Notes under the pieces: generated by a model
Told to the model about the DNA's origin: nothing
Databases searched by the model: none
Seen by the model: the letters and a program-made list of their open reading frames with translations, nothing else
Shown here: piece after piece, positions 15,637 through 33,362 of the stretch
How positions within the stretch are numbered: position 1 is the stretch's first letter
How the letters are laid out: each line of letters starts with the position of its first letter
Position numbers and translations under genes: made by a program
Source: an uncultured Bacilli bacterium
Lineage (GTDB): Bacteria; Bacillota_I; Bacilli_A; RF39; UBA660
Assembly: GCA_905235045.1 (NCBI GenBank)
Contig: CAJOJO010000006.1
Location: 1 to 40,613, forward strand
DNA length: 40,613 nucleotides
Direction of reading: 5' to 3'

Positions 15637-15677
15637 ATAACAATTTAGTCAAGACCAATAAAAAATGAGGTGAAATA

Positions 15678-17096: not shown

Positions 17097-17099
17097 AAT

Positions 17100-17600: not shown

Positions 17601-17615
17601 AAGTAAGGAGTTATT

Positions 17616-18227
17616 ATGAAACTAAATAGTAAAGAAGCATTGAACTTATTAAATTCTTGTATTGGTATGTCACGTGATGATAATTGGATTACACATTCAA
17701 AGTGTGTTGGAGATAGTGCAGGGACAATAGCTAAAGCATTAAATTTAGATGAAGATTATGCAAAAGCACTTGGATATATTCATGATATTGGTAGAAGATA
17801 TAAATGGAATAATTATGAAGGAGTTATACCACATGCAATAAATGGATATAATTATATTAAAGAACTTGGTTATGATGAAGAATATGCAGGAATATGTATA
17901 AAACATTCATTTTTAAATAATGATATAAATTGTTTAGCTAATGATAGAGATTATACTGATTCAACTGATCCTAATTATGAATTTTTTAAAGAATATGTAT
18001 TAAGTGAATATTCTATTTATGACAAAATAATTTGTTTATGTGATTTAATGTGTAAAACAAATATCATGACAATTGATAAAAGAATGAATGATTTATTAAC
18101 TAGACATGGAGTTTTTAAAAATACACATTATCATTTATTGGAAACAAATAAACTAAAGCAATATTTTGATAATATGTTGGGATATAATCTATATGATTTA
18201 TTTCCAGAAATAAAAGAAAATTTATAG
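17616..18227 (+). CDS. HD-domain phosphohydrolase, paralog 1
   Basis: A 203-residue protein. Metal ligands are seen as His in WITHSKCVGDSAG, the HD pair in LGYIHDIGRR, and His in CIKHSFLNND. It starts at ATG 17616 behind AAGGAG. It is clearly related to the next gene: both contain a GDSAGxIAKALN block, a KIICLCDLM/KIINLCDLM block and end GYNLYDLFPEIK. Substrate unknown; the linked nucleotidase, nucleoside hydrolase and HAD genes suggest nucleotide breakdown. Confidence 0.87.
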   Translation: MKLNSKEALNLLNSCIGMSRDDNWITHSKCVGDSAGTIAKALNLDEDYAKALGYIHDIGRRYKWNNYEGVIPHAINGYNYIKELGYDEEYAGICIKHSFLNNDINCLANDRDYTDSTDPNYEFFKEYVLSEYSIYDKIICLCDLMCKTNIMTIDKRMNDLLTRHGVFKNTHYHLLETNKLKQYFDNMLGYNLYDLFPEIKENL

Positions 18228-18235
18228 GAGAAATT

Positions 18236-18838
18236 ATGAAATTAACAAGTATTGAAGCAAGAGAACTTTTAGAAAAAGAAAGACCTAATCAAAAAGATGA
18301 TAGATGGATAGGGCACTCAATTTGTGTAGGAGATAGTGCTGGTAAAATTGCTAAAGCACTTAATGAAAAAGGAATAGATGTTGATGTTGATAAAGCAATT
18401 ACTCTTGGGTATCTTCATGATATTGGAAAATATAATGGAGAATCACATGGACATGTAATGAGAGGTTATGAATACCTAAAAGAAAAAGGGTATGATGATG
18501 AATACTGTAATATTTGCCTAACACATTCTTATTTGAATAATGATACATTATGCACAGCAGGAGGCATTCCGGGTGATATTCCATTTAGAACTGAATTTAT
18601 TAAAAATCATAAATATACAATTGAAGAAAAAATAATTAATTTATGTGATTTAATGTGTCCTCAAAGTGGCGTGGTTTATACAATTGATAAAAGACTTATA
18701 GATATTATGATTAGAAGAGGTGCTTATTCAAATACACAATATCATATTAAAGAAACATATAAGTTAAAAGAATACTTTGATAATTTACTTGGTTATAATC
18801 TATATGATTTATTTCCAGAAATAAAAGATAATTTATAG
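18236..18838 (+). CDS. HD-domain phosphohydrolase, paralog 2
   Basis: A 200-residue tandem paralog of the preceding gene, starting at ATG 18236 eight bases after its stop with GGAG overlapping the gap. The HD pair is in LGYLHDIGKYNG; other ligands lie in WIGHSICVGD and CLTHSYLNND. Sequence between the copies has diverged well beyond a recent duplication. A terminator directly follows, ending the first transcription unit of the array. Confidence 0.87.
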   Translation: MKLTSIEARELLEKERPNQKDDRWIGHSICVGDSAGKIAKALNEKGIDVDVDKAITLGYLHDIGKYNGESHGHVMRGYEYLKEKGYDDEYCNICLTHSYLNNDTLCTAGGIPGDIPFRTEFIKNHKYTIEEKIINLCDLMCPQSGVVYTIDKRLIDIMIRRGAYSNTQYHIKETYKLKEYFDNLLGYNLYDLFPEIKDNL

Positions 18839-18863
18839 AGATAGATTAAAAATCTATCTTTTT
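18839..18863 (+). terminator. Terminator inside the array
   Basis: AGATAGATT (18839-18847), loop AAA, AATCTATCT (18851-18859), then T. It directly precedes a new promoter. Confidence 0.8.
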
Positions 18864-18864
18864 A

Positions 18865-18873
18865 TGCTATAAT
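18865..18873 (+). promoter_or_regulatory. Internal array promoter
   Basis: TGC plus TATAAT (18868-18873), running out of the terminator T-tract. The next feature is leader ORF 3, so this promoter would drive the leader and the MFS gene. Confidence 0.7.
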
Positions 18874-18896
18874 TGAATAGAAATGGAGTGATTCCT

Positions 18897-18938
18897 ATGG
18901 ATAATAAAACTAATATAAACTGGTTGGTGTTTATTTAG
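18897..18938 (+). CDS. Array leader ORF 3 (type B)
   Basis: Encodes MDNKTNINWLVFI behind GGAGTGATTCC. The TAG overlaps the type B core GTCTAAG (18938-18944). Confidence 0.55.
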   Translation: MDNKTNINWLVFI

Positions 18939-19090
18939 TCTAAGATTCATTCAAAATCCTATAAAATAAGGTGAAAGTAATGATTAATTAATTACATATT
19001 TTTAAAATAAATATATAAAAATAAATAAGAATTCTAAAGAGTAGGCAAAAAATTGCATAGTATTTTAATACTTGGTGTTTACAGTCTAAC
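18938..19090 (+). repeat. Array unit, core B left / core B right
   Basis: Left core GTCTAAG at 18938, right core GTCTAAC at 19084; each is preceded by GGTGTTTA. Between them lie CTATAAAATAAGG, an AT-rich stretch shared almost base for base with the unit at 23778, and a hairpin AGTATT-TT-AATACT just before the right core. Together with the leader, this accounts for the gene-free 18839-19113. Confidence 0.65.
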
Positions 19091-19113
19091 TAATATATAA
19101 AGAGGTGATTAAA

Positions 19114-20304
19114 ATGAACAATAAAATAGGCAAAGATGCAAAACTTTTGATAATAAATGATTTGTTTTATTCTATTACTGCAGTATTTTTAGAAACTTTT
19201 TTGGTAGCTTATTTTTTAAAAATAACAAATGAGAACATTTTTGTAGTAGCAACTTATTATATTACACTTTATACATTGATGGGATTAGGTAATATATGTA
19301 TAGGAAGATTTATTAAGAAAAAACCAAATAGAGGTAAAATTTTTCTTTCTATAGGTGTTTTTTTAAGAGCAACATTCATTTTATCAATAGTATTAATTGG
19401 TAGTAAAGTTTCCAATTATCATATACTAATTGCTATTATTTATTCAATCTCTCAAATATTTTATTGGTGTGCTCATGAAGTTATTTATGTAGATGTAACA
19501 AACGAGAATAACAGAAAAAAATTTATGTCTTTAAAGAAAATATTTAGTAAAATTATCAATATATTAATCCCAATAGTATTGGGTGCTTCAATTGAATTAT
19601 ATTCATTTTCAAAGATAGCTATTTATGTTTTATTTATTAGTGTATTAGAAATTATTTCGGTTTTGTTAATTAAGAATAGTACAAAGATTTCTGATAAGGG
19701 TAAATATAGTATTACTAAATTTTTAAAATGTATAAAAGAGAATAAAATGCATAAAGAAAAATATTATAATTTATCTAGTATTGCTTATGGTATGGTTGAA
19801 AGCGTTATTAGTACAATCATAATTATCATCACAATCATGACATTTAAAACGTCAATTAACCTTGGAATACTTACAACAATATTTTCAATATGTTCAATGA
19901 TTACATTACTTTTATATAATAAATATTATAATAAAAACAATTCCAAATATATTTTAACCATATGTTCAGTAATATTATTATTAAGCGTAATTGGTTTGTT
20001 AATTGATATTAATAAAATAACATTAGTAATATATAATTTCTGTTACGCAAATATATTTTGTATATTTGAAGTTACATATAATGCTAGAAAAGGCGATTTA
20101 GTAGAAGAATGTAAGATTGAAAACTATAAGGAAGAGCATATTGGATTAAGTGCATTTACAATATCACTTGGCAGAGTAACGGGATATTTTTTAATGATGA
20201 TTGTAGCTTTATTAAATGATATTATTTATTTTAAATTATTATTGTTGATTATTACATTAATTGCGCCAATTTATTGCTTATTAATGAATAAAACATACTT
20301 ATGA
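19114..20304 (+). CDS. MFS transporter (array copy 1)
   Basis: A 396-residue integral membrane protein with about 12 hydrophobic segments and short loops, including the MFS loop-2/3-like GRFIKKKPNRGK after the second helix pair. It starts at ATG 19114 behind AGAGGTGA. It fits major-facilitator exporters of drugs or metabolites; no substrate can be read. It shares the 5' unit with the second MFS gene of the array, but the two proteins look only distantly related. Confidence 0.8.
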   Translation: MNNKIGKDAKLLIINDLFYSITAVFLETFLVAYFLKITNENIFVVATYYITLYTLMGLGNICIGRFIKKKPNRGKIFLSIGVFLRATFILSIVLIGSKVSNYHILIAIIYSISQIFYWCAHEVIYVDVTNENNRKKFMSLKKIFSKIINILIPIVLGASIELYSFSKIAIYVLFISVLEIISVLLIKNSTKISDKGKYSITKFLKCIKENKMHKEKYYNLSSIAYGMVESVISTIIIIITIMTFKTSINLGILTTIFSICSMITLLLYNKYYNKNNSKYILTICSVILLLSVIGLLIDINKITLVIYNFCYANIFCIFEVTYNARKGDLVEECKIENYKEEHIGLSAFTISLGRVTGYFLMMIVALLNDIIYFKLLLLIITLIAPIYCLLMNKTYL

Positions 20305-20306
20305 TA

Positions 20307-20315
20307 TGTTATAAT
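20307..20315 (+). promoter_or_regulatory. Internal array promoter before leader 4
   Basis: TGT plus TATAAT (20310-20315) begins 3 bp after the MFS stop. Confidence 0.55.
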
Positions 20316-20342
20316 TATGTATATTTAAAGGTGTTGATCCAA

Positions 20343-20387
20343 ATGAATGAAAATAAAACTAATATCAACTGGTTGATGTTTATTTAG
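20343..20387 (+). CDS. Array leader ORF 4 (type B)
   Basis: MNENKTNINWLMFI behind AAGGTGTTGATCC. The TAG runs into GTCTAAG (20387-20393). Confidence 0.55.
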   Translation: MNENKTNINWLMFI

Positions 20388-20531
20388 TCTAAGATTCATT
20401 CAAACTGCTATAAAATAAGAGATAATGGTACTTTCCTAATTAAATATTTTAAATTAAAATTTATAAAAATTATTAAAAATAGTAAAAAAAATGCTTAAGA
20501 ATTGATATGGTGATAACACCCCGTCAAGACC
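20387..20531 (+). repeat. Hybrid array unit, core B left / core A right
   Basis: The left end is type B (GTCTAAGATTCATTC) but the right end is type A (TGGTGATAACACCCC, then GTCAAGACC at 20523-20531). At 136 bp core to core it is the shortest unit and lacks the second hairpin. It is the mirror image of the hybrid at 23778. Confidence 0.65.
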
Positions 20532-20552
20532 AATAAAAAATGAGGTGAAAAT

Positions 20553-20804
20553 ATGGATGGAAAAGAAATAATAGAATTGCTTGCAGATTATGAACATGAT
20601 AGATGGTCAAGATGGCAAAAATATCTTTTTAGTAAATGTATTTTTAAAGAAGATGGTAGTTTAATCATTCCTAGAGAATTTGTTGATAGATGGACTAGAC
20701 AGATGAATACAAATTATGATTCTTTAAGTAATGAAGAAAAAGTATCAGATAGAAAAGAAGCAATAAAAATTTTGAATTTAATTAAGGAGAATAGACATGA
20801 GTAA
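20553..20804 (+). CDS. Small RyR-like domain protein (83 aa)
   Basis: An 83-residue soluble protein with the pattern YEHDRWSRWQKYLF near the start and LSNEEKVSDRKEAIKIL at the end. This resembles the RyR-type domain and related short proteins common in phages and bacteria (HxRW near the N-terminus, EEKxxDR near the C-terminus). Function unknown; RyR domains are thought to bind nucleotide-like ligands. Its stop overlaps the next gene's start by 8 bp, so the two form one cassette. Confidence 0.6.
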   Translation: MDGKEIIELLADYEHDRWSRWQKYLFSKCIFKEDGSLIIPREFVDRWTRQMNTNYDSLSNEEKVSDRKEAIKILNLIKENRHE

Positions 20805-21294
20805 AGGAATTATTGTTGCTGGTTTTGGTGCAATAGGGAAAACAACTTTAGGTAATAAGTATTCTAATATAATTGATTTAGAATCAGGTTATTATAAATG
20901 GGATAATAGAGGATTTGAAAGTATTCCGTATGAACAACGAAAAGGTAAAAATGAAAGACCTGAAAATCCTGAATGGCCAAATAATTATCATATGGCTGTA
21001 TTAGATGCAATTAATAAATATGATATTGTGTTAACATCTATGCACTGGCATCTACTTGATTTTTTAGAACAAAATAATATAGAGTATTATTTAGCTTATC
21101 CTACTTTAGATAGTGAAAAAGTATTAGAAGAAAGATGTTATGCTAGAGGTAATAATAAAACATTTACTGATAAACTTAAAATTAATTTACATGATTGGAA
21201 TGAAAAAATAAAATTGTATCATCCTAAGAAACTATTAATTATTTCTAAAGATGAATATTTAGAGAATGTATTAAAAAAAGAAAATATTATTTAA
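20797..21294 (+). CDS. P-loop nucleotide-binding protein (kinase-like)
   Basis: A 165-residue protein with Walker A as GFGAIGKTTL (about residues 9-18). The compact size and GKTT loop at the N-terminus fit a small nucleoside or adenylate kinase-like P-loop protein; KVLEERCYARGNN resembles a lid segment. The substrate is unknown. It starts at ATG 20797 behind AAGGAG and overlaps the preceding gene. Confidence 0.7.
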   Translation: MSKGIIVAGFGAIGKTTLGNKYSNIIDLESGYYKWDNRGFESIPYEQRKGKNERPENPEWPNNYHMAVLDAINKYDIVLTSMHWHLLDFLEQNNIEYYLAYPTLDSEKVLEERCYARGNNKTFTDKLKINLHDWNEKIKLYHPKKLLIISKDEYLENVLKKENII

Positions 21295-21307
21295 GGTGTT
21301 GATCCAA

Positions 21308-21367
21308 ATGAATGAAAATAAAACTAATATAAACTGTCTGGTAATGCTTTTTGCAACATTTAGATAA
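21308..21367 (+). CDS. Array leader ORF 5 (type C)
   Basis: MNENKTNINCLVMLFATFR, starting behind AAGGTGTTGATCC. Like the head copy it has the C-type end (TTTGCAACATTTA) and no 150-bp unit; the next gene's AAAAGAGGTG follows directly. Confidence 0.55.
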   Translation: MNENKTNINCLVMLFATFR

Positions 21368-21381
21368 AAGAGGTGAATGTA

Positions 21382-21954
21382 TTGTCTATAGAAGAGTTAT
21401 ATGAAATATTGTTAAGCGAAAAACCTAGCTATAATATATTAAATAATGAAAAGAAAATATTTGAACTTATACCAGAACTTAAGAATTGTAGAGGATTTAA
21501 TCAAAATAATGAATGGCATATATATGATGTTTATGAACACATACTTCATGTTGTAGATAGTGTTCCAGCAAATATAGTTTTAAGAATGGCATCTTTATTT
21601 CATGATATTGGTAAACCAAATTCATATACAGAAGATGAAAATAAAATAGGTCATTTCTATGGCCATTGGGATGAATCTAAAAAGATATTTGATGACTTTG
21701 CCCTTAAACATAATCTTGATTCAACAATGAGTAGTTTAATATCTAGCTTAATCTATTATCACGATATTAATATTTCTAAATTATCTAATGAAGAATTAAA
21801 TAAATTGCATGAAACACTTGGTGAACAAGGAATAAAAATGCTTTTTGAACTAAAAACAGCTGATTTATTAGCTCAAAATAAAAAATTTCATTATATTTCA
21901 AAAGATTATGAAGAACAAAAAGACAGATTATTATTGAAATATAAAAGGAAGTGA
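21382..21954 (+). CDS. HD-domain phosphohydrolase
   Basis: A 190-residue protein. The start chosen is TTG 21382, 6 nt behind AGAGGTG; the GTG at 21373 lies within that site, and every other array gene uses this spacing. HD ligands: His in YDVYEHILHVVD, the HD pair in ASLFHDIGKPNS, then FYGHWDESKK and IYYHDINI. The pattern resembles the HD module of CCA-adding enzymes and stand-alone phosphohydrolases. Substrate unknown. Confidence 0.85.
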   Translation: MSIEELYEILLSEKPSYNILNNEKKIFELIPELKNCRGFNQNNEWHIYDVYEHILHVVDSVPANIVLRMASLFHDIGKPNSYTEDENKIGHFYGHWDESKKIFDDFALKHNLDSTMSSLISSLIYYHDINISKLSNEELNKLHETLGEQGIKMLFELKTADLLAQNKKFHYISKDYEEQKDRLLLKYKRK

Positions 21955-21959
21955 TTCCT

Positions 21960-22001
21960 ATGAATAATAAAACCAATATAAATTGGTTGATAACAATTTA
22001 G
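21960..22001 (+). CDS. Array leader ORF 6 (type A)
   Basis: MNNKTNINWLITI behind GGAAGTGATTCC. Core GTCAAGACC at 22001-22009, with no 150-bp unit. Here AATTGGT (left of the core) and ACCAATT (its end) can form a 7-bp stem, extended by TGA/TCA with two bulged bases. Confidence 0.6.
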   Translation: MNNKTNINWLITI

Positions 22002-22030
22002 TCAAGACCAATTAAAAAAGAGGTGATCAC

Positions 22031-22450
22031 ATGAACTACATATTAGGATATGACTGTGATGGTAATGAAATTTATGAATATAGAGTTTTACGCGCTATTT
22101 GGTCGAATGATATAGATATAAAAGATTTAGATGATGCTGACCCAAGACAATATTGTGCTATTATAGGTGATGACGATATTGCCTATGCAATTAGTGTTTA
22201 TGATTGGTGGAATAGTGATTTAATTAGAAAACGAGAAAATATTGATGATAATGAAGAAATACCAATAATTGTAAAGCCAATAAATGAAATGGAAAATTAT
22301 GAAGTAGCACAATGTAGCGATGGGGAATTCTATTATAGTTTAGATCGTAATGAATTAAAAGAAAAATTAAATTCAATTTTAAATAATAATCATAATAAAG
22401 TTAAAAAATTGGTAAATAAAAAAGGATATAATACTCATGAATTAAAATAA
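22031..22450 (+). CDS. Hypothetical protein (139 aa), acidic
   Basis: This small soluble protein starts at ATG 22031 behind AGAGGTGATC. It is strongly acidic in the middle (DIDIKDLDDADPRQY, IGDDDIAYAI) and has a lysine-rich C-terminal end. No family recognised. As an orphan cassette gene between two type A junctions it has no informative neighbours. The C-terminus overlaps the degraded leader 7. Confidence 0.65.
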   Translation: MNYILGYDCDGNEIYEYRVLRAIWSNDIDIKDLDDADPRQYCAIIGDDDIAYAISVYDWWNSDLIRKRENIDDNEEIPIIVKPINEMENYEVAQCSDGEFYYSLDRNELKEKLNSILNNNHNKVKKLVNKKGYNTHELK

Positions 22451-22489
22451 AACAAACATAAACTGGTTGATTACGATTTAGTCAAGACC
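22437..22489 (+). repeat. Array leader 7, degraded (type A)
   Basis: ATG 22437 is followed by AAT TAA: the usual GAA codon has become a stop. The frame behind it still reads NKTNINWLITI and ends in the core GTCAAGACC (22481-22489). No 150-bp unit. CTGGT and ACCAG on either side can pair, with C-G where copy 6 has T-A. Confidence 0.6.
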
Positions 22490-22509
22490 AGATAAAAAGA
22501 GGTAAATAT

Positions 22510-23034
22510 ATGAAATTAATCAATAAAAAAGACTTTAAAAAGAATAATTATGAATACATATGGTATGCTTGTTATGGTTCAAATATTAATTATAAGAGAT
22601 TTATGATGTATATTAATGGCGGTAAACACGCAAGTAAAACTGGATGTAATGATAAATCTGAACCATTAGAATATAGAAGTTATATTATTGAACATCCAAT
22701 ATACTTTGCTGGCGAGAGTAAAAATTGGACGGGTGGCATGGCATTTTTAGACTATAAAAGTACCGGAAAAACTTATGGTAAAATATATAAAATAAAAAGT
22801 GAACAATTTAAAGATATATTCGAACAAGAAAATGAGTTATATGATACTATTATATTGTTGGGATATATAGATAAATTACCTATTTTAACTTTTACTGCAA
22901 AAAATAAATTAAACAATCTTTTAAATAATCCGAGTGACAAATATAAAGATATAATAATTGGTGGTTTAAAGGATTTGAAAGTTGATTTAACAGAAGAAGA
23001 ATTAAATAGATATTTAAGTAATTATGAGGAGTGA
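22510..23034 (+). CDS. Gamma-glutamylcyclotransferase-like (GGCT fold) protein
   Basis: A 174-residue protein with the GGCT-fold signature YGSN in WYACYGSNINYKRF (about residues 17-30). Other marks are YFAGESKNWTGGMAFLD and GKTYGKIYKI, as in bacterial GGCT-like proteins. Enzymes of this fold cyclise gamma-glutamyl groups to 5-oxoproline. It is followed 4 bp later by a gamma-glutamyl hydrolase-type amidotransferase, which suggests the pair handles gamma-glutamyl compounds. Function inferred. Confidence 0.75.
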   Translation: MKLINKKDFKKNNYEYIWYACYGSNINYKRFMMYINGGKHASKTGCNDKSEPLEYRSYIIEHPIYFAGESKNWTGGMAFLDYKSTGKTYGKIYKIKSEQFKDIFEQENELYDTIILLGYIDKLPILTFTAKNKLNNLLNNPSDKYKDIIIGGLKDLKVDLTEEELNRYLSNYEE

Positions 23035-23038
23035 TATT

Positions 23039-23728
23039 ATGAATAAACCAATAATAGGATTAGTAGCTAAACATACTAAAACTGATAGTACTAGACCTAA
23101 TTCTTTAATTAGAGATGAATACAAACAAGCAATTTTTGATAATGGGGGTATTCCAATTGGATTATTATCTCCAAATGCAGAAATAATGTTTACCGATGAT
23201 AATTGGAAACAAGAAGAAACTAAATTAGATAAAGAAAAAATTATTGATGAGATTAATTTGTGTGATGGAATAATATTATTAGGTGGTTCAGAAAGTGAAG
23301 TTTGGGAACCATTTATTGCAAAATATTGTTATGATAATAATATTCCATGTCTTGGTATATGCGCTGGACAAAATAATATTGTTAGGGCATTAGATGGAAC
23401 AATAATGCCAATTCCTAATCCTGATAAGCATTCAAGACCAAATGATATGTATGTACATAATATGAAATTAATAGATAAAGATTCAACATTTTATTCAATA
23501 ATTAAAAGAGATGAGATAAAAGTTAATTCAAGACATAAAAATGCTATTGATAATAATTCTATTTTAAATGTAGTTGCGGTGTGTGATGATAATTATAAAG
23601 AAGTTGTTGAGGCAAAGGATAAAGATTTTTATATTGGACTTAGATTTCACCCAGAATCTTTATATAAAATAGATGAAAATATGAATAATATATTTAAGAA
23701 ATTTATTGAAGCATGTAAAAGAAATTGA
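23039..23728 (+). CDS. Class-I glutamine amidotransferase-like hydrolase (peptidase C26), copy 1
   Basis: A 229-residue protein starting at ATG 23039 behind GAGGAG; the in-frame ATG at 23024 lies in the previous gene. The nucleophile elbow is LGICAGQNN with catalytic Cys at about residue 112, and the His-Glu pair is in RFHPESL. It fits the gamma-glutamyl-gamma-aminobutyrate hydrolase (PuuD) group, which cleaves gamma-glutamyl amides. It forms one cassette with the GGCT-like gene and is paralogous to the gene at 25408. Confidence 0.88.
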   Translation: MNKPIIGLVAKHTKTDSTRPNSLIRDEYKQAIFDNGGIPIGLLSPNAEIMFTDDNWKQEETKLDKEKIIDEINLCDGIILLGGSESEVWEPFIAKYCYDNNIPCLGICAGQNNIVRALDGTIMPIPNPDKHSRPNDMYVHNMKLIDKDSTFYSIIKRDEIKVNSRHKNAIDNNSILNVVAVCDDNYKEVVEAKDKDFYIGLRFHPESLYKIDENMNNIFKKFIEACKRN

Positions 23729-23733
23729 GTGGG

Positions 23734-23778
23734 ATGAATGAAAATAAAACAAATATTAACTGGTTGATAACAATTTAG
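23734..23778 (+). CDS. Array leader ORF 8 (type A)
   Basis: Consensus MNENKTNINWLITI. The ribosome binding site is poor (GAGTGGG close to the ATG). Ends in GTCAAGACC (23778-23786). Confidence 0.55.
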   Translation: MNENKTNINWLITI

Positions 23779-23938
23779 TCAAGACCCTCCAAAATAATTA
23801 TAAAATAAGGTGAAAGTAATGATTAATTAATTAAATATTTTTAAAATAAATATATAAAAATAAATAAGAATTCTAAAAAGTAGACTAAAAATAGCATAGT
23901 ATTTGATACTTGGTGTTTACAGTCTAACTTTTCAAAAA
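23778..23938 (+). repeat. Hybrid array unit, core A left / core B right
   Basis: Left core GTCAAGACC, right core GTCTAAC at 23932, 154 bp apart. From TATAAAATAAGG onward the unit matches the one at 18938 nearly base for base, so the switch of type lies between the left core and that hairpin. The hairpin AGTAT-TTG-ATACT precedes the right core. Confidence 0.65.
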
Positions 23939-23952
23939 AGAGGTGATAAAAG

Positions 23953-25161
23953 ATGAATTATGAAACAGAAAAAAAGAAATATCTGGTATCTTCAGTATTA
24001 GATACAGCAAATAATAGAATTGCTAGTGCATCTTTTATTACTGCTTTTGCTGTTTATTTGGGATTATCAGATTTAGCAATAGGAATATATGCTGTATTAG
24101 ATACGATGACAAATATAATACAAGTTTTTGCTGCACCTTTATTCTATAAAATTGGGCAATCAAAAAAAGTTGTATTAACAAATTATTCTATTTATAGAAT
24201 ATCATCTGTATCAATGGCGTTTATTCCATTTATATCAAATGATATTAGTATAAGAACAATATTGTTTTTTATTCTTGCAACAATATATGCTGTTACAGGT
24301 GAAATGGGCTACATAACTTTTGTTAATTGGCGAATGACACTAATAAAAAAAGAAGACAGAACTACATTTGCTGCTAAAAGAAATTTTTTTAAAAATACAG
24401 TTGTTTTAGCATTTAGTTTATGTATGGGTATAGTTCTAGATAGATTTACGGCATTCGGTTATGAATTATATGGATTTTTAATATTATTTATAATTGTATT
24501 TATAATTGCATTTATAGATATATACCTTAGAATTCATACCTTTAAACCAGAAGTTATTCAAGAAAAAATTGGTTTAAAAGAAAATATTATTATTCCAGCC
24601 AAAGATAAAGACTTTAGAAGCGTTCTTATAACAGGTGGATTAAATAGACTTGCTTATGGATTAGGAACAATGTATTTGAATGTTTTCTTATTAAGATATC
24701 TTAAAGTTGGTTATTTATATTATAGTATTCTTAATATATTAATTAATTTATCAGAAGCATTTTCCAGTAAATATTGGGCAAATAAATCTAAAGATAGAAA
24801 ATGGAGTAATGTTATACTGCCTATGTGTATAATTTTAATTATTTCATTTGCTATGCTACTAATTAATAATAGTATACTAGTCTATATATTACCTTTAATT
24901 TATATATTAATTGGATTTGGTAATGCTTCATATGAAATGTATGATCATATTGCTATATATGAAGCATCAAAAGATAAATATCAAACATCATATGTAACAT
25001 TTGAAAGGTTTATTGAAGGCATTGTTACAATGATACTTCCAATTCTTTCATATACAATTTTTAAAGAAAGTGATAATGCAATTAAATTAACATTTATACT
25101 TGCAATTGCTTTATATGTTATACTATTTATGTATTATAAATTTTTAAATAAGAGGAAGTGA
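23953..25161 (+). CDS. MFS transporter (array copy 2)
   Basis: A 402-residue membrane protein with about 12 hydrophobic segments. A central loop (about residues 205-225) splits it into two six-helix halves as in MFS proteins. It starts at ATG 23953 behind AGAGGTGA. Probably an exporter; the substrate is not visible. It differs in sequence from the MFS gene at 19114 although both follow the same array unit. Confidence 0.8.
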   Translation: MNYETEKKKYLVSSVLDTANNRIASASFITAFAVYLGLSDLAIGIYAVLDTMTNIIQVFAAPLFYKIGQSKKVVLTNYSIYRISSVSMAFIPFISNDISIRTILFFILATIYAVTGEMGYITFVNWRMTLIKKEDRTTFAAKRNFFKNTVVLAFSLCMGIVLDRFTAFGYELYGFLILFIIVFIIAFIDIYLRIHTFKPEVIQEKIGLKENIIIPAKDKDFRSVLITGGLNRLAYGLGTMYLNVFLLRYLKVGYLYYSILNILINLSEAFSSKYWANKSKDRKWSNVILPMCIILIISFAMLLINNSILVYILPLIYILIGFGNASYEMYDHIAIYEASKDKYQTSYVTFERFIEGIVTMILPILSYTIFKESDNAIKLTFILAIALYVILFMYYKFLNKRK

Positions 25162-25166
25162 TTTCG

Positions 25167-25220
25167 ATGAATGAAAATAGGTTAGACAAAACAAACATCA
25201 ACTGGTTGATAACAATTTAG
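25167..25220 (+). CDS. Array leader ORF 9 (type A, three extra codons)
   Basis: MNENRLDKTNINWLITI behind GGAAGTGATTTC. Nine extra bases contain GTTAGAC, the reverse complement of the type B core. Ends in GTCAAGACC (25220-25228). Confidence 0.6.
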   Translation: MNENRLDKTNINWLITI

Positions 25221-25385
25221 TCAAGACCTTCTTGAATTCCTTATAATATAAGGAAAAATTGAATAATAGATCTTGCATGATTTTAATAAAAATATGATAA
25301 AATAAGTAAAAATAAGTTAAAAATGAGTAATTTTGAATATAAAAATGCTTAGAAATTGATATGGTGATAACACCCCGTCAAGACC
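25220..25385 (+). repeat. Array unit, core A / core A
   Basis: Cores GTCAAGACC at 25220 and 25377. Inside: hairpin CCTTATAATATAAGG (25239-25253), box GATCTTGCATG (about 25269), a possible extended -10 TATGATAAAAT, a hairpin AAAAT-GAGTA-ATTTT, then TGGTGATAACACCCC before the right core. Confidence 0.7.
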
Positions 25386-25407
25386 AATAAAAAATGAGGT
25401 GATGTAT

Positions 25408-26112
25408 ATGAATAATAAACCTATTATAGGAGTAGTAAGTAAACCAAATATTTTTTGCGATGATAAATTATTTACATCACAATTTGTTTATGATGGAGTT
25501 AGAAATGCTGTATTAAAAAATGGTGGACTTGTTATAGGAATATTACCAACAAAAGTTTCTACTAAATTTTGTGATTCAGATGAAGTAGTAAATAATTCAA
25601 ATTTTTCACAATCCGAATTAGAAGATTTATATTCGTTAATTGATAAATGTGATGGTATAATAATTCAAGGTGGTTTATCCAGTGATGATTATGAGATAAA
25701 AGCAGCTAAGTATGCAATAGATAATGATATACCAATACTTGGAATATGTGCAGGATTTAATAACATTATTAGAGCAATGGGTGGGAAAGTTTTTTGTATT
25801 AATAATACAATTCATAATACTGAAGATGGCTCAATAGTTCATAAAAATATAATTAAAGAAAATACATTATTATATGATATATTAAAAACAAAAGAAATTG
25901 ATGTTAATAGTATTCATACAATGTTTGCAAAAGAGGAAGACATTAAAAATTTAGAAATATCAGCATACTCAGATGATGGATATGTTGAAGCAGTAGAACT
26001 TAGTGATAAAAAGTTTTGCTTAGGTATTAAATGGCATCCTGAATTAATGCTAAATGATGATAATATGAATAATATATTTAAATACTTTATCAAAACATGT
26101 AAAAGGAGTTGA
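25408..26112 (+). CDS. Class-I glutamine amidotransferase-like hydrolase (peptidase C26), copy 2
   Basis: A 234-residue paralog of the gene at 23039. ATG 25408 is 6 nt behind GAGGTG; GTG 25399 and ATG 25402 are upstream in-frame alternatives. The nucleophile elbow is LGICAGFNN and the His-Glu pair is in KWHPEL. It likely hydrolyses a gamma-glutamyl amide. Two paralogs in separate cassettes of one array suggest either duplication by cassette copying or independent capture; their sequences differ widely. Confidence 0.87.
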   Translation: MNNKPIIGVVSKPNIFCDDKLFTSQFVYDGVRNAVLKNGGLVIGILPTKVSTKFCDSDEVVNNSNFSQSELEDLYSLIDKCDGIIIQGGLSSDDYEIKAAKYAIDNDIPILGICAGFNNIIRAMGGKVFCINNTIHNTEDGSIVHKNIIKENTLLYDILKTKEIDVNSIHTMFAKEEDIKNLEISAYSDDGYVEAVELSDKKFCLGIKWHPELMLNDDNMNNIFKYFIKTCKRS

Positions 26113-26117
26113 TCCAA

Positions 26118-26210
26118 ATGAATGAAAATAAAACTAATATAAATTGGTTGGCTTGTATTTATGACGTACATCACTTAAACCCTTATAAAATGGGGACTTT
26201 TAAGAAATGA
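26118..26210 (+). CDS. Array leader ORF 10 (type D, 30 aa)
   Basis: Begins MNENKTNINWLACIYDVHH and runs on through the CCTTATAAAATGGGG region to a TGA at 26208. The core region TGGCTTGTA (26149-26157) differs from types A-C. Ribosome binding site AAGGAGTTGATCC. Confidence 0.55.
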   Translation: MNENKTNINWLACIYDVHHLNPYKMGTFKK

Positions 26211-26320
26211 AATCTTGCAAGTTTTAATAAAAAAGAAGCAAAAAATGAAAAAAGCAGATTAAAAATTGCTCATTTTTGAGAGGAATTAGAGTACTGGCTT
26301 GTAATATGCCGACACATTTA
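26149..26320 (+). repeat. Array unit, core D / core D
   Basis: TGGCTTGTA occurs at 26149 and again at 26295, each followed by a related TG(A/C)CG...CA(C/T)TTA segment. The unit contains the CCCTTATAAAATGGGG hairpin, the box ATCTTGCAAG, and a hairpin AAAAAT-TGCTC-ATTTTT before the right core. Confidence 0.6.
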
Positions 26321-26344
26321 ATATTTATAAAAAGAGGTGAAATA

Positions 26345-26803
26345 ATGGATATTAGAAAGGTTAATATAAATGATTATAAAGATGTAATTAATTTATATAA
26401 GCAATTATTTGATGCCGAAAAAGTTTTTGATGATAATATAGTGAGAACATATAAAGTTGACGAAAAAGAAGAGAAAAAAATAAAAAAAAGGATTAAATCT
26501 AGAAAAGAAATCTTTTTAATAGCGGAAATTGATAATAAAATTGTTGGTTTAATAGATGGATATATAATAGAAAGTATTTATTATAAGGAGAAGATATCAT
26601 ATCTTGATCATTTATGTGTAGACGAAAAATTTAGGAATAACGAGATTGGTTCAAAACTAATTGAAAAGTTCAGTGAAATATCGAAAAAGAAAGGTGCTAG
26701 TTATATAAAACTAAATGCTTTTGAGAAAAATATACCTGCGGTTAGCCTTTATAATAAGCATGGATTTGAAAGTTACTCAATTTATTATATGAAGAAAATT
26801 TAA
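26345..26803 (+). CDS. GNAT-family N-acetyltransferase (array copy 1)
   Basis: A 152-residue protein starting at ATG 26345 behind AGAGGTGA. The acetyl-CoA site is seen as YLDHLCVDEKFRNNEIGSKL (motif A; the usual R-x2-G-x-G/A reads RNNEIG) and the motif B region as ALYNKHGFE-like AVSLYNKHGFES near the end. These are the hallmarks of the GNAT fold, which transfers acetyl groups to amines on proteins, antibiotics or metabolites. Substrate unknown. Confidence 0.88.
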   Translation: MDIRKVNINDYKDVINLYKQLFDAEKVFDDNIVRTYKVDEKEEKKIKKRIKSRKEIFLIAEIDNKIVGLIDGYIIESIYYKEKISYLDHLCVDEKFRNNEIGSKLIEKFSEISKKKGASYIKLNAFEKNIPAVSLYNKHGFESYSIYYMKKI

Positions 26804-26822
26804 GTAAAAGGAGTTGATTCCA

Positions 26823-26867
26823 ATGAATGAAAATAAAACTAATATAAACTGGTTGATAACAATTTAG
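26823..26867 (+). CDS. Array leader ORF 11 (type A)
   Basis: Consensus MNENKTNINWLITI behind AAAGGAGTTGATTCC. Ends in GTCAAGACC (26867-26875). Confidence 0.6.
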   Translation: MNENKTNINWLITI

Positions 26868-27031
26868 TCAAGACCTTCTTGAATTTCTTATAATATAAGG
26901 GAAAACTGAAAAAAAGATCTTACATGTATTAAATAAAAATATGTTAAAATAAGTATAAATAAATTAAAAATAAGTAATTTCGAATAAAAAATGCTTAGGA
27001 ATTGATATGGTGATAACACCCCGTCAAGACC
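26867..27031 (+). repeat. Array unit, core A / core A
   Basis: Cores at 26867 and 27023, 156 bp apart, near-identical to the unit at 25220. TATGTTAAAAT is a possible extended -10. The right core contains ATGGTGATAACACC, whose ATG (27007) is in frame with the next gene. Confidence 0.7.
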
Positions 27032-27051
27032 AATTAAAAAGAGGTGTTATT

Positions 27052-27621
27052 ATGAAATATGATATGTTAGAAACAAAGAGATTAATTTTAAAATCTGGGA
27101 CTTATGAAGATTATTTAACTGTCTATGAATATGATTTTACTAAATTAAGAAATATAGCAGGCGAATTTGAATTTGTGAAATTAGATCAAAATAAGGTAGA
27201 AGAATATTCAAAATATCATATGGAAGAAAAAAATAATGTATTTGATTTTATAATATATTTAAAAAATAATATGACACCAATTGGGAATGTTATTTTAGAT
27301 AAAACTAATGAAATGAAAAATTCATTAGAAATAGCATTTAACTTACATCCTAACTATTGGAGAAATGGTTATATGACAGAGGCAGTTATAGAAATTATGA
27401 AATATATTTTTAATAATACAAATTATAATGCTATTATTTATGGCTATGCAGAAGATAATTATAAATCTAAAGGTGTAAATAAAAAAATAGGATTTGAGTA
27501 CTATGATGAATATGAAGAATACTATCCAAGATTTAATAAAAATATAAGAACAATAAAAACAATTATGACAAAAGATAGATTTAAAAAAATATATAATAAG
27601 GAAGTGATTATAAATGGATGA
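27052..27621 (+). CDS. GNAT-family N-acetyltransferase, RimJ/RimL-like (array copy 2)
   Basis: A 189-residue protein. It opens MLETKRLILKSGTYEDY, the standard RimJ/RimL-type start, with IGNVILDK and NLHPNYWRNGYMTEAV as the acetyl-CoA region and KSKGVNKKIGFEYYDE as motif B. ATG 27052 lies behind AGAGGTG; an in-frame ATG at 27007 inside the right core would add 15 residues and is less likely. The last codons overlap leader 12. Confidence 0.9.
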   Translation: MKYDMLETKRLILKSGTYEDYLTVYEYDFTKLRNIAGEFEFVKLDQNKVEEYSKYHMEEKNNVFDFIIYLKNNMTPIGNVILDKTNEMKNSLEIAFNLHPNYWRNGYMTEAVIEIMKYIFNNTNYNAIIYGYAEDNYKSKGVNKKIGFEYYDEYEEYYPRFNKNIRTIKTIMTKDRFKKIYNKEVIING

Positions 27622-27667
27622 TAAAAAGTTAACCCAATTAAATATTACCTGGTTGATAACAATTTAG
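27614..27667 (+). CDS. Array leader ORF 12 (type A, divergent start)
   Basis: MDDKKLTQLNITWLITI, overlapping the GNAT stop, behind AAGGAAGTGAT. The first half is unlike the other copies but the end WLITI and core GTCAAGACC (27667-27675) are kept. Confidence 0.55.
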   Translation: MDDKKLTQLNITWLITI

Positions 27668-27831
27668 TCAAGACCTTCTTGAATTCCTTATAATATAAGG
27701 AAAAATTAAAAATTAGATCCTGCATGTTTTAAATAAAAATATGTTAAAATAAGTAAAAATAAGTTAAAAATGAGTAATTTTGAATAAAAATTGCTTAGTA
27801 ATTGATATGGTGATAACACCCCGTCAAGACC
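27667..27831 (+). repeat. Array unit, core A / core A
   Basis: Cores at 27667 and 27823, 156 bp apart. Same parts as the unit at 25220: CCTTATAATATAAGG, GATCCTGCATG, TATGTTAAAAT, AAAAT-GAGTA-ATTTT, TGGTGATAACACCCC. Confidence 0.7.
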
Positions 27832-27852
27832 GATTAAAAAAGAGGTGAAATT

Positions 27853-28371
27853 ATGATTTCTTTATCAGAATACAAACAACATCTGCTCAGCTTTTATACT
27901 TGGCCAATAGATGGTAATATAGATGAAATTGAGAAAAGAAAGAAAATAATGAATGAGAAATATTCGGATGAATATTTTGAAAAAATTATTTCTGACACAA
28001 ATAGTTTTATATATGAAGTATTATTATCTGAAACTGTAAAGTATGATTATTTTAAAAAAGAAATAGATGATGATACAACTTCATATATAGATTTGAATTT
28101 ACATGGAGGTTGGCCTTCAGATACTTTATTTGTTGATGATATTTCAGGAATAATAATAAGTAAGTATTTGATGCAACAAGTTTTTGGAAGTTATTTGCAA
28201 ATTGATGTTGAATGTGATGAAATCGAAGATACAAGTGATGAAGATATTTTAAGTTATTACTATAGATATTATATTTACATGCAAGGATTTCCTGAAAACA
28301 TTGATGAAATAAAAGAAAGCTTTTTTGGAAAAAGTAAACAGTTAGTAAAAGGAGGTAATACTCATGAATGA
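27853..28371 (+). CDS. Hypothetical protein (172 aa), acidic
   Basis: A soluble, acidic protein starting at ATG 27853 behind AGAGGTGAAA. It has an aromatic-rich stretch (ILSYYYRYYIYMQGF) and no recognised motif. As a single-gene cassette it gives no context for function. Its stop overlaps leader 13, whose ribosome binding site GGAGG lies in its last codons. Confidence 0.65.
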   Translation: MISLSEYKQHLLSFYTWPIDGNIDEIEKRKKIMNEKYSDEYFEKIISDTNSFIYEVLLSETVKYDYFKKEIDDDTTSYIDLNLHGGWPSDTLFVDDISGIIISKYLMQQVFGSYLQIDVECDEIEDTSDEDILSYYYRYYIYMQGFPENIDEIKESFFGKSKQLVKGGNTHE

Positions 28372-28423
28372 AAATAAAACTAATATCAACTGTCTGGTAA
28401 CACTTTTTGCAACACTTATCTGA
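28364..28423 (+). CDS. Array leader ORF 13 (type C)
   Basis: MNENKTNINCLVTLFATLI behind AAAGGAGG, overlapping the upstream stop. The core TGCAACACTTA lies at 28408-28418. Confidence 0.6.
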   Translation: MNENKTNINCLVTLFATLI

Positions 28424-28573
28424 AATGCTTATAAAATAAGGATTCGCAAGGGACAACATCTTGCATTTTTGATATAAAAAAATTATAGAAATTAATAAAA
28501 ATAGTCAAAAAGTACTAAAAATAGTAATTTTTAGTGTTTGCATTTTGGGGTTGATATTCTTATGCAACACTTA
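28408..28573 (+). repeat. Array unit, core C / core C
   Basis: TGCAACACTTA at 28408 and 28563, 155 bp apart. Inside: CTTATAAAATAAGG, CATCTTGCAT, and the hairpin AAAAAT-AGTA-ATTTTT. This is the only C junction with the 150-bp unit; the other two (14941, 21308) lack it. Confidence 0.65.
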
Positions 28574-28591
28574 ATTATAGAAGGTGATATA

Positions 28592-29158
28592 ATGTCATTA
28601 AGGTATATAAAGAGTAGTGAATATAAAAATAAAATAGAAGAATTATATTTAACATCTTTTCCAGAAGAAGAAAGATTTCCATTTTGGATATTAGATGAAT
28701 GTTCTAAAGAAGATAATTCGGATTTATTAGCTATATTAGATAATGACAGATTTATTGGAATGTGTTATCTTGTTAATTGTAATAATGCATATTATCTTAT
28801 GTATTTAGCAGTATCTGAAGAACTTAGAAATCAAAATTATGGTTCTAGAATACTTGCTGATTTAAGAGAAAAATATGAAACACTATTTTTATCAGTTGAT
28901 GAACCAATTGATGATATAAGTATTAGACGTAAGAACTTTTATTTAAGAAATGGATTTTATGATACAAATAAGTACTATGAAGATACTAGTGTTAATTATG
29001 AAGTGTTATGCACAAATAATGAATATGAAATAACAGATGATAATATGCAAAAGAGATATACTAATATGACAAATAATTCAGAACTATTTAAAGTAATATC
29101 AAATACCTTTAATGCAGATTTTGTTAATTTAAAAGATAAAAAAATAATGAAAAATTAA
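28592..29158 (+). CDS. GNAT-family N-acetyltransferase (array copy 3)
   Basis: A 188-residue protein starting at ATG 28592 behind AAGGTGAT. MYLAVSEELRNQNYGSRIL carries the acetyl-CoA motif (R-N-Q-N-Y-G), and FYLRNGFYDTNKYYED is the motif B region. About 40 C-terminal residues extend beyond the core domain. It starts just after the right-hand C core. Substrate unknown. Confidence 0.88.
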   Translation: MSLRYIKSSEYKNKIEELYLTSFPEEERFPFWILDECSKEDNSDLLAILDNDRFIGMCYLVNCNNAYYLMYLAVSEELRNQNYGSRILADLREKYETLFLSVDEPIDDISIRRKNFYLRNGFYDTNKYYEDTSVNYEVLCTNNEYEITDDNMQKRYTNMTNNSELFKVISNTFNADFVNLKDKKIMKN

Positions 29159-29171
29159 GGAAGTGATTTCT

Positions 29172-29216
29172 ATGAACGAAAATAAAACAAATATAAACTG
29201 GTTGATATTGATTTAG
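29172..29216 (+). CDS. Array leader ORF 14 (type B)
   Basis: MNENKTNINWLILI behind GGAAGTGATTTC. Ends in GTCTAAG (29216-29222). Confidence 0.6.
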   Translation: MNENKTNINWLILI

Positions 29217-29366
29217 TCTAAGTTTTATTCAAACTCCTATAAAATAAGGATAAACTAAGTATTTAGTAATTACATTTTTTAATAGATAATTACTAAAAAG
29301 TATAAAAAATAACTAAAAATAGTTGAAAATAGCAAAGTATTTGATACTTGGTATTGACAGTCTAAG
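29216..29366 (+). repeat. Array unit, core B / core B (TATTGA variant)
   Basis: GTCTAAG at 29216 and 29360, 144 bp apart. Both cores are preceded by a TATTGA-type segment, where the other B sites have TGTTTA. The unit contains CTATAAAATAAGG, an inverted pair TTAGTAATTA/TAATTACTAA, and the hairpin AGTAT-TTG-ATACT. Confidence 0.65.
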
Positions 29367-29390
29367 ATATAGTAAACGAGGTGAAATAAT

Positions 29391-30248
29391 GTGGGATATA
29401 TTGAAAAATTAGAAAATCATAAAAGATTTGAATTGAGTGATATACAAGAATTTATACAAGAACAGTTAAAAGTGTTGGATTTGAAAGAATACGTTAATAA
29501 TATTGAAGAAGAAAATGTTTTTTGCGGAATAGCAGCATATGGTATGGATGATAAAGCAATATCTGTTAGTAATAATTTTAAAGATGATTTTAAATATTAT
29601 AAGAAAAAATGCTTTGAGTCAAATTTATTACAAATGATTTCCTGTAATAATAATGATTTATATAATTTATATATAATAAATACTGTGTTTCATGAAATAT
29701 GGCATGCAAGACAAAATAAAGAATTAAATGAAAATAGAAATTCATCTTATTCACATTTAAATGATATTTCGTTTAAAATTATGTCACTTAGTGGATCAAC
29801 ATATCATCATTATCATGATAGATATTTTACTGAATTTGATGCGATAATTAATTCTATTAAATTAACATTAAATTTTATAGAAAAATTTAATTTTCAAGAA
29901 AATGCATTGTTAATACTTAACAAATCATTTGCTAAAAAAATTTTAGATTGTTATAAAAAAACAGATTATATTGAAAATGAAGAATATGGTTCACCGATTT
30001 TAACATTAGAATTTTTAATTAAGTATTTGAGCTTTACTAATAAATTTCCTAGTTTAGAAGTAAACATGATAATTGAAATGTATAAAAATCAATATGGTTC
30101 AGATGATGATTTAAGCAATCTCATGAACGGCATTCAAATATCTGAAAGAATGTTAGAAGTTTTAAATAATATTAAAAAAGGTGATATTAGAACTACAAAT
30201 ATTTTACAAATATTAAGTTCAGAAAAAAAAGAAAATAAACATATATAA
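29391..30248 (+). CDS. Putative HExxH metalloprotein (285 aa)
   Basis: GTG 29391 sits 7 nt behind GAGGTG; an out-of-frame ATG overlaps it at 29389. The protein carries HEIWHA within a helix (NTVFHEIWHARQNKE, about residues 98-112), a zinc-metalloprotease-type motif. A later TEFDAIINS, after a His-rich stretch YHHYHDRY, may give the third ligand. No signal peptide or membrane segment. It does not closely resemble the HExxH protein at 12509. Function unknown. Confidence 0.7.
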   Translation: MGYIEKLENHKRFELSDIQEFIQEQLKVLDLKEYVNNIEEENVFCGIAAYGMDDKAISVSNNFKDDFKYYKKKCFESNLLQMISCNNNDLYNLYIINTVFHEIWHARQNKELNENRNSSYSHLNDISFKIMSLSGSTYHHYHDRYFTEFDAIINSIKLTLNFIEKFNFQENALLILNKSFAKKILDCYKKTDYIENEEYGSPILTLEFLIKYLSFTNKFPSLEVNMIIEMYKNQYGSDDDLSNLMNGIQISERMLEVLNNIKKGDIRTTNILQILSSEKKENKHI

Positions 30249-30271
30249 TTATAGATAAGGAGTTGATCCAA

Positions 30272-30358
30272 ATGAATGAAAATAAAACTAATATAAATTG
30301 GTTGATATTGTTTTATTCAACTCCTTTAACAAATCCTTATAAAATAAGGAAAAACTAA
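30272..30358 (+). CDS. Array leader ORF 15 (type F, 28 aa)
   Basis: Begins MNENKTNINWLILFYSTP and reads through the CCTTATAAAATAAGG hairpin to TAA at 30356. Ribosome binding site AAGGAGTTGATCC. Confidence 0.55.
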   Translation: MNENKTNINWLILFYSTPLTNPYKIRKN

Positions 30359-30480
30359 GAATTGAATCTTACATATTTTTATTAAAAAATAGTGAAAATT
30401 TGTAAAAAATGATAAAAATTAGCTAAAAATAATGATTTTTGGTGGAGGAATTAAGGGCTTGATATTTCCAGTTAACCCCA
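30302..30480 (+). repeat. Last array unit, core F / core F
   Basis: TTGATATT at 30302 and 30459, each followed by a loosely similar CAACTCC/TTAACCCC segment, 157 bp apart. It holds CCTTATAAAATAAGG, GAATCTTACAT, and the hairpin AAAAAT-AATG-ATTTTT. No cassette gene follows within 25 bp; a terminator-like hairpin comes next. This covers the gene-free stretch 30249-30599. Confidence 0.55.
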
Positions 30481-30500
30481 TTATAAAATAAGGGTTTTTT
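30476..30500 (+). terminator. Terminator closing the array
   Basis: CCC ... TTAT-AAA-ATAA ... GGG followed by six T. It looks like the unit's own hairpin with a T-tract added. Confidence 0.55.
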
Positions 30501-30561
30501 AACTTTTACTGAGTGTTCGGAAAATAGTAATATTGCGATGTAATCAAATTATAGAAAAGTG

Positions 30562-31321: not shown

Positions 31322-32556
31322 ATGTCAAAATATAATGTTGGATCTTATATAAGACTATCAAGAGATGAGAATTATAGTGATTCTGAGTATAGATAATCAA
31401 ATTAAATTGGCTGATTATTATTGTGAAAATAATGGTTTAGAAATAGTAGAAAAGTATATTGATAATGGATATAGCGGAACAACTTTTGATAGACCTGGTT
31501 TTCAAAATCTTTTAAGAGATATTGAGTGTGGTTTAATTAATACAGTAATAGTTAAAGATTTATCTAGACTTGGAAGAAATTACATTCAAGTGGGTTATTA
31601 TTTACATTATTATTTTCCTGATAGAAATGTAAGATTTATTTCAATCAATGATGATTTTGATAGTTTAAAGCATGGTAACATTATGGAACGATTAGATATT
31701 CCACTAAAAAATATGATGTATGATCATATGGCATACGAAACTTCAGTTAAAGTTAAAAAATCATTAAGAATAAATAAAGAAAATGGAAACTTTGTTGGAT
31801 CTTCAGTTATTTATGGATATAGAAAAAATCCAGAAGATATTCATAAATTAATAGTTGATGATGAAGCAGCAGATGTAGTTAGAGAAATATTTAATATGTT
31901 TTTATTAGGAATGACTAAATCTGAAATTGCAGAAGAATTAAATAAAAGAGAAGTGATGACTCCTGCTTTATATAAGAAAACTCATAATTTAGGATATACC
32001 AAACCTAAGAAAGATAATAAATGGAATTATGAAATAATTGATAGAATATTAAGAGATGAAAACTATACAGGAACTTTAGTACAAGGTAAAAGAAGAAATG
32101 AAAACTATATAAGTCATAGAGAAGTAAAGAATCCAGAAATAGACTGGATTAAGTTTGAAAATCATCATGAAGAATTAGTTTCTAAAAAGGTATTTGATAA
32201 AGTTCAAGAAATGTTAAAAGTACAAAGAAGAAGTACCAATAAAAATGATCTGTTATCTGGTTATTTATTTTGTGCTGATTGTAATGGCCCAATGGCTTTA
32301 GTTAAAGGTAAGAAAAATAGCTATTACTACTGTAGAAATAATCTAAATAAAAAAATATGTACAAAACATAGAATTAGGCAAAATGATTTATATAACAAGA
32401 TTATTGAATTATTAAATTTAAAAAAAATTAGATGCTGAAATAATAGAAGAGTTAAATAGAGATTTAATTACAAAATATATTGATAAAATTATAGTTTATG
32501 AAGAAGAAAAAGTAGATGTAATTTTAAAATATGAAAGAAAAATAAAGGAGATGTAG
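31322..32556 (+). pseudogene. Large serine recombinase, frameshifted
   Basis: The true start is ATG 31322 behind AAGGGAG, reading MSKYNVGSYIRLSRDENYSD, with the catalytic Ser in YIRLSRDE. After DSE the frame hits TAA at 31394; adding two bases near 31387 would restore SESIDNQI and join the open frame to 32438. That part shows LSRLGRNYIQ, a Recombinase domain (FVGSSVIYGYRK) and a zinc ribbon (CADCNGP, later CRNNLNKKIC). A second shift at an A run near 32421-32427 and a lost coiled-coil segment separate the end (YIDKIIVYEEE, to TAG 32554-32556). It would have been an integrase/resolvase of a mobile element; a restart at 31365 would lack the catalytic Ser. Confidence 0.85.
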
Positions 32557-33335: not shown

Positions 33336-33362
33336 TAAATAGATTTAAAGGAAGTGATTCTA

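Follow-up and report, generated by a model that had tools for sequence, protein, structure and literature searches.

The stretch of DNA analysed here (the window) comprises 40,613 bp of contig 6 of the 884-kb draft genome of an uncultured Bacilli bacterium (G000). From position 14950 to 30480 it carries an array of small accessory genes (NUDIX, nucleoside hydrolase/NT5C, HAD, HD, MFS, GATase and GNAT) with 15 junctions between them. The best reading of its sequence is a serine-integrase cassette system that would work like an integron, in which a serine integrase has probably stacked gene cassettes one behind another at the start of rbgA (ylqF). Each junction holds a short leader open reading frame (ORF) that ends in a left core. 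Ten junctions additionally carry a unit of about 150 bp, closed by a right core, and five do not; the initial annotation had counted them correctly, and all leaders and cores in the window were located. All features of the window described below lie on the forward strand.

A long junction served as query against 291 genomes from the family of the window; 218 matched at E ≤ 1e-3, dozens of them strongly, many of the weak matches being short AT-rich stretches. About 120 related array loci were gathered, consisting of 40 stretches that surround the top matches, each 20 kb long at most, and 80 loci listed in a scan of named genomes, which are gut and rumen Bacilli metagenome-assembled genomes, e.g., Candidatus Coprosoma. 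Together they yielded 266 distinct junctions and 36 rbgA starts. An exact leader and left-core pattern was found in 29 of 385 genomes of the order, these 385 all belonging to the family of the window. A scan of viral sequences for the same pattern returned three copies of one myophage gene, which is unrelated.

Leaders as copies of the rbgA start and the putative crossover point

The leader ORF duplicates the beginning of the rbgA coding sequence. In the example at 18895-18923, the start codon and following codons read M-D-N-K-T-N-I-N-W, and 14 further copies occur in the array. In relatives, the last leader copy of an array continues directly into NINW-YPGHMAKTKR, which is the start of rbgA itself; rbgA formed the last leader copy in roughly 25 of the 41 loci looked at first, and the rbgA cluster comprised 24 loci. 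The array lies between lepB and rbgA in these relatives, and empty sites exist as well, such as L290, where lepB is followed by 65 nt and rbgA (MEKINWYPGHM). Therefore, each cassette appears to equip rbgA anew with a ribosome binding site, a start codon and the first codons. The copied start would repair rbgA at each insertion, and the older start would be left upstream as a useless leader. This would explain the leaders of the window that are broken by stop codons (NINW-stop at 15616 and MN-stop at 22449). The target gene itself extends from 33354 to 34244, with an N-terminus ending in ..NTVINWYPGHMAKTKR and the target-site TGG at 33408-33410. In locus L153, a remnant of a recombinase cassette lies inside the array (1063-1363); the leader after it is of the KVFSNTVINW type, as in the rbgA of the window.

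The leader core is AAAACNAAYATHAAYTGG, with free third bases, and in 251 distinct leader copies the linkage of these bases to the two flanks was split. The third bases of ACN, AAY and ATH follow the left flank (z 3.6, 6.8 and 4.9, respectively) and are unlinked to the right flank (z -0.8, -0.2 and 0.3), whereas the last base of TGG is linked to the right flank (z 10.1) but unlinked to the left (z 0.5). The free base in between follows neither, and the two flanks are independent of each other (z 0.8). The split linkage places the exchange within about AAYTG, indicating that the crossover lies at the AAY-TG of N-W (TGG), where cassettes would join one another or rbgA. General recombination would scatter exchanges along the leader, so that their confinement suggests a dedicated enzyme. 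The putative crossover dinucleotide is the TG of the Trp codon TGG, which lies at 25203-25204 in the junction used as example below and at the equivalent position of every other junction. This assignment draws on the linkage together with dyad symmetry: the best two-fold symmetry of the junction is centred on TG, and some leaders read ATCAAC-TG-GTTGAT.

Genes and junctions are shuffled between genomes. Cassettes shared by two genomes, 88-98% identical, stop exactly after AACTGG, and the next sequence is rbgA in one genome and another junction in the other (e.g., L056/L167, L051/L135 and L057/L138).

The left core, which directly follows TG, is a 25-bp half-site, GTTGATAAC AATTTA GTCAAGACC (25205-25229). 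In a position profile of 226 left cores counted from TG, bp 1-6 (GTTGAT) and 11-15 (ATTTA) were conserved, and bp 7-10 and 16-25 were variable. The attP half-site of the LI integrase is likewise 25 bp long and comprises a recombinase-domain (RD) part and, beyond a minor-groove linker, a zinc-domain (ZD) motif that occupies bp 16-24 (PMC3783163). The left core looks as if it were laid out like such a large-serine-integrase attP half-site; it can be read as the right half-site of attP, with bp 2-9 RD-like, bp 10-15 as linker and bp 16-24 ZD-like. The 9-bp core GTCAAGACC named in the initial annotation is exactly bp 16-24 of this half-site. Large serine integrases use a 2-bp core, half-sites of about 25 bp, and attP and attB sites that are otherwise different. 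Here, as far as sequence alone can tell, the crossover interval includes TG, the 25-bp layout lies on the cassette side and the rbgA side differs.

In the proposed model, a cassette would thus comprise the left core, a spacer, the right core, a single gene or a small number of genes, and a newly supplied rbgA ribosome binding site with the start codon and the first ~10 codons. A recombinase of the large-serine-integrase family, lacking the coiled coil, would insert such cassettes at the TG of the conserved N-W codons, using either the rbgA 5' end as attB or a junction already present.

The unit between the cores and the junctions without it

In each cassette, the unit between the repeats appears to be the region of the attachment site. 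In the example junction, the left core is followed by a spacer (25230-25359) with CCTTATAATATAAGG, the motif ATCTTGCATG and then phased A-tracts, and by the right core TATGGTGATAACACCCCGTCAAGACC (25360-25385), a second half-site-like copy directly ahead of the ribosome binding site of the next gene. Compared with run-preserving shuffles, the spacing of AAAA tracts in 218 units peaked at 10, 20, 31 and 41 bp (z 51, 43, 18 and 4, respectively), and by this signature the unit is intrinsically bent DNA. Left-left core distances in 73 junctions fall into two clusters, 146 and 157 bp, which differ by one helical turn; 125/126 bp is rare. As a sign of helical phasing, these clusters are by themselves suggestive and do not resolve the period; the firm evidence is the periodicity of the A-tracts.

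The left and right cores of one junction agree at 14.5 of 17 positions (n = 66), compared with 11.0 of 17 across junctions of the same locus (n = 360). The right core has no conserved ATTTA, and its centre is 1-2 bp shorter than that of the left core. The earlier description of the two cores as direct repeats has exceptions in the window, where the long junctions at 20370 and 23761 each combine a left and a right core of differing type. The right core is most likely a second binding site for the same enzyme; together with the bent A-tract spacer, it would probably form an accessory site that partly replaces the missing coiled coil.

Alternatively, the unit might be a promoter with two operators, the left and right cores, looped by the bent DNA, with cassettes lacking it being transcribed from upstream. 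The right core immediately before the ribosome binding site, the phased A-tracts, the fixed 146/157-bp spacing and a TTGCAT..TAAAAT-like stretch in the consensus would all suit such a function. However, the more than ten core types per family would demand equally many regulators, the same gene is found with different types, and the rbgA starts and the TG crossover would be left unexplained. We consider this reading unlikely as a replacement for the cassette model, although a regulatory function could hold in addition to it.

In the short type A junctions, the form first described was confirmed: the left flank is joined to the right flank by a single GTCAAGACC, i.e., a long junction minus the unit. 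By hand count in the ~120 loci, ~31 short joints keep the left-type centre, with the joint in the right half-repeat, and ~9-10 keep the right-type centre, with the joint in the left half-repeat or the leader end (e.g., L073 15942, L171 2557, L176 2512 and L182 6585); ~4 are partial or ragged (L153 2603, L187 4166, L064 9113 and L081 8656). The differing placement is exemplified by L057 and L138 versus L176. The initial annotation had proposed to look for the same gene pair with and without the unit in related strains, and the same gene was indeed found in both forms in different genomes. A gene with a short junction in L151 and a long one in L175 (96.9% identical) shows the joint ATT/TAGTCAAGACC versus GGC/TAGTCAAGACC; another is short in L056 and long in L117 (96.6% identical), and L071/L176 is a further such pair.

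These pairs, the mostly clean relation of short to long junctions and the co-variation of the cores within a junction could also mean that the 150-bp unit is itself mobile and moved by site-specific recombination between left and right core. We regard this as improbable, since the joints are split between the right half-repeat and the left half-repeat or leader end, with a few ragged ones, the centres of the two cores differ, right cores have no TG-centred partner, and no unit was found outside leader junctions. Site-specific excision or insertion, as initially suggested, thus survives in part: site-specific recombination does appear to act at the junctions, but the piece that moves would be the whole cassette and not the unit. 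The crossover had been placed inside the 9-bp core; instead, the joints fall in either half-repeat or the leader end, and the sharp crossover is at TG, outside the unit. With two alternative joints in 8-9-bp repeats and some ragged cases, deletion between the two direct half-site repeats fits the absence of the unit better than a single enzyme-made crossover. The common short class keeps the complete left core and so may stay usable. A target-site duplication of a small transposon was rejected: both core halves repeat, but around differing centres, and terminal inverted repeats were not seen.

The junctions of the window are given here from the crossover TG with which each begins. The short ones are located at 14993-15019 (GCAACACTT type, the first of the array), 15631-15657 (type A), 21335-21361 (GCAACATTT type), 21984-22010 (type A) and 22464-22490 (a hybrid of a left part TTGATTACG and a right part GTCAAGACC). 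In addition to the example at 25203, the long ones are located at 18921-19091 (AGTCTAA type), 20370-20531 (mixed, left AGTCTAAG and right GTCAAGACC), 23761-23929 (mixed, left GTCAAGACC and right AGTCTAAC), 26145-26318 (GGCTTGT type), 26850-27031 (type A, to the right-core end), 27650-27831 (type A with a divergent leader), 28391-28573 (GCAACACTT type), 29199-29366 (AGTCTAAG type, the same cassette being present in G122 with 97.6% identity) and 30299-30479, the last of the array, which opens the cassette holding a recombinase. The two mixed junctions show a reciprocal swap of left-core type, suggesting exchange between junctions within the array. A conserved stretch, ..TGAGTGTTCGGAAAATAGTAAT.., follows the right core of recombinase-type junctions (30476-30502 in the window, L050 14461 and L077 8997) and is terminator- or promoter-like.

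The serine recombinase beside rbgA

Shortly upstream of rbgA, the window carries a serine recombinase gene (31322-32438) with Resolvase, Recombinase and zinc-ribbon domains. It is frameshifted after ~24 codons, which could be real or an error of the draft assembly; other genomes hold intact copies. The intact relatives are 399-424 aa long, and three of them (P0001-P0003) contain the Resolvase, Recombinase and zinc-ribbon domains (Pfam PF00239, PF07508 and PF13408); P0001 is encoded in L130 (1462-2715, minus strand). At least 18 genomes have serine recombinase genes that immediately precede rbgA and share its strand; the smallest gaps are ~52 bp. In L289, L267, L266 and L272, the recombinase cassette opens with a leader/left-core junction and closes with rbgA. 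L130, where the gene lies within the array, and L153 also hold a recombinase in a junction-bounded cassette.

The nearest solved structures are those of TnpX (2mhc) and YokA (9dxh). The 399-424-aa enzymes lack a coiled coil of ~100 residues that is present in the aligned 533-552-aa enzymes from the same family of genomes. The coiled coil helps set the direction of recombination in the LI integrase and is essential in the phiC31 integrase; its deletion weakened the former and abolished the activity of the latter (PMC10754689). The short recombinase would be the acting enzyme of the array.

Several results weigh against this assignment and the cassette model built on it. No circle was seen. In many genomes with arrays, nothing closely matched the short recombinase (G122, G025 and G034 at E 1e-60), and G217, at 93% completeness, has cassettes but no PF00239 or PF00589 match, and no Xer recombinase was found in it. 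Most arrays would therefore need a trans-acting enzyme or be sedentary. Among nine cassettes, recombinase identity and junction type were not significantly correlated (Mantel r 0.15, p 0.19), and the recombinases of the window and L130 are 95% identical, yet lie behind different junction types. One and the same gene can also follow junctions of different types, the breaks lying close to the ribosome binding site, which one crossover point is insufficient to explain.

Arrays without recombinase matches, as in G217, are also what would be expected if the shuffling were due to general homologous recombination between the repeated leaders, which needs no dedicated enzyme, or to XerC/XerD. The leaders offer 18-40 bp of identity, and xerC lies downstream of rbgA in several genomes, although this is ordinary gene order. 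Against this stand the restriction of the crossover to about 5-7 bp instead of the whole leader, the serine recombinases beside rbgA and inside cassettes, and cores unlike a conserved dif site, and such shuffling is a poor candidate. A tyrosine recombinase was rejected as the array enzyme; near rbgA, only housekeeping Xer-like genes were seen. That the leader is a regulatory peptide or attenuator RNA ahead of each gene is very improbable despite its start codon, ribosome binding site and conserved codons, considering that leaders are rbgA starts, some of them broken, that their third-base variation fits a past rbgA function, and that neither a consensus fold of 191 long junctions, which gave no conserved RNA structure, nor an Rfam search of the window, which matched only a tRNA, supports it.

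Between the recombinase and rbgA, the window encodes a HEPN-domain protein (32560-33318), which is also the neighbour in L130; it travels with the recombinase and might be part of a defence or toxin-antitoxin system. Larger elements with two serine recombinases (523-575 aa) are likewise found at rbgA (G155, G107, G111, G126 and G003). On contig 4 of G155 (69-110 kb; L280-L282), ~36 kb without cassette junctions separate the end of an array of ~20 cassettes from two tandem serine recombinases beside rbgA; this stretch is probably a larger element integrated at the same site. Paired or triple serine recombinases lie directly upstream of rbgA in L283-L288, from several genera, where the N-termini of rbgA include GGLHKSVINW and GGLQKTVINW.

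Relation to known systems

Insertion into the 5' end of rbgA is known from the integrative and conjugative element (ICE) Tn5253 and other streptococcal ICEs (PMC8571831, PMC6079316 and PMC4701971). Tn5253 inserts downstream of nt 20 of the rbgA coding sequence with an 11-bp core, and duplication of attB restores the coding sequence (PMC8571831). The array shares with it the target gene, the restored coding sequence and, to judge from the published position, the insertion point behind the Trp codon. However, Tn5253 is a 64.5-kb conjugative element with a tyrosine Int and Xis that makes a single insertion, whereas the arrays consist of tandem gene-sized cassettes with a serine recombinase and have neither Int/Xis nor conjugation genes.

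Integrons are closest in behaviour. Like them, the arrays hold tandem, co-oriented single small genes, each with a recombination site, that are exchanged between genomes, and some arrays have no integrase nearby. Unlike integrons, which have the tyrosine integrase IntI, folded attC sites and a separate attI, they contain no tyrosine recombinase gene (xerC is present only by ordinary gene order) and combine direct half-site repeats and bent DNA with a serine recombinase. The putative attB here also lies within an essential gene, which each cassette has to restore. Folding of the attC kind, with an R''-L''-L'-R' inverted-repeat hairpin, was rejected, as the cores are direct repeats and no conserved folded structure was found.

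In enzyme class and tandem accretion, the closest system is the SCC elements of staphylococci. These are tens of kb long and insert at the 3' end of rlmH by Ccr serine recombinases, which have the coiled coil. In both cases, serine-recombinase cassettes pile up in tandem at one end of a conserved housekeeping gene, some without their own recombinase, but the target here is the 5' end of rbgA and not the 3' end of rlmH. To our knowledge, no bent-DNA second site is known in SCC elements. With the large serine integrases (LI/A118 integrase, TnpX and SPbeta YokA), the enzymes share the Resolvase, Recombinase and zinc-ribbon domains, and the sites share the 25-bp half-site layout; the difference is the coiled-coil segment in the zinc domain, which is absent from the 399-424-aa enzymes.

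Since the array lacks defining features of each of these systems, it was not filed as a member of any. We found no serine-recombinase cassette arrays and no serine integrases at rbgA in the open-access papers searched, which is not proof of absence. It is possible, but tentative, that the array is an independently built second integron, served by serine integrases without the coiled coil, in which direction would be set by the DNA, through a second half-site one bent 146/157-bp loop away, and not by the coiled coil.

If the cassette model is true, the family would provide a natural large serine integrase without the coiled coil, together with matching sites, for testing direction control, as well as a ready tool to stack genes at one safe site. 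Tandem arrays of single-gene cassettes are classically exemplified by integrons, which use a tyrosine integrase and folded sites. Serine-integrase arrays across a gut Bacilli lineage would mean that gene stockpiling evolved more than once.

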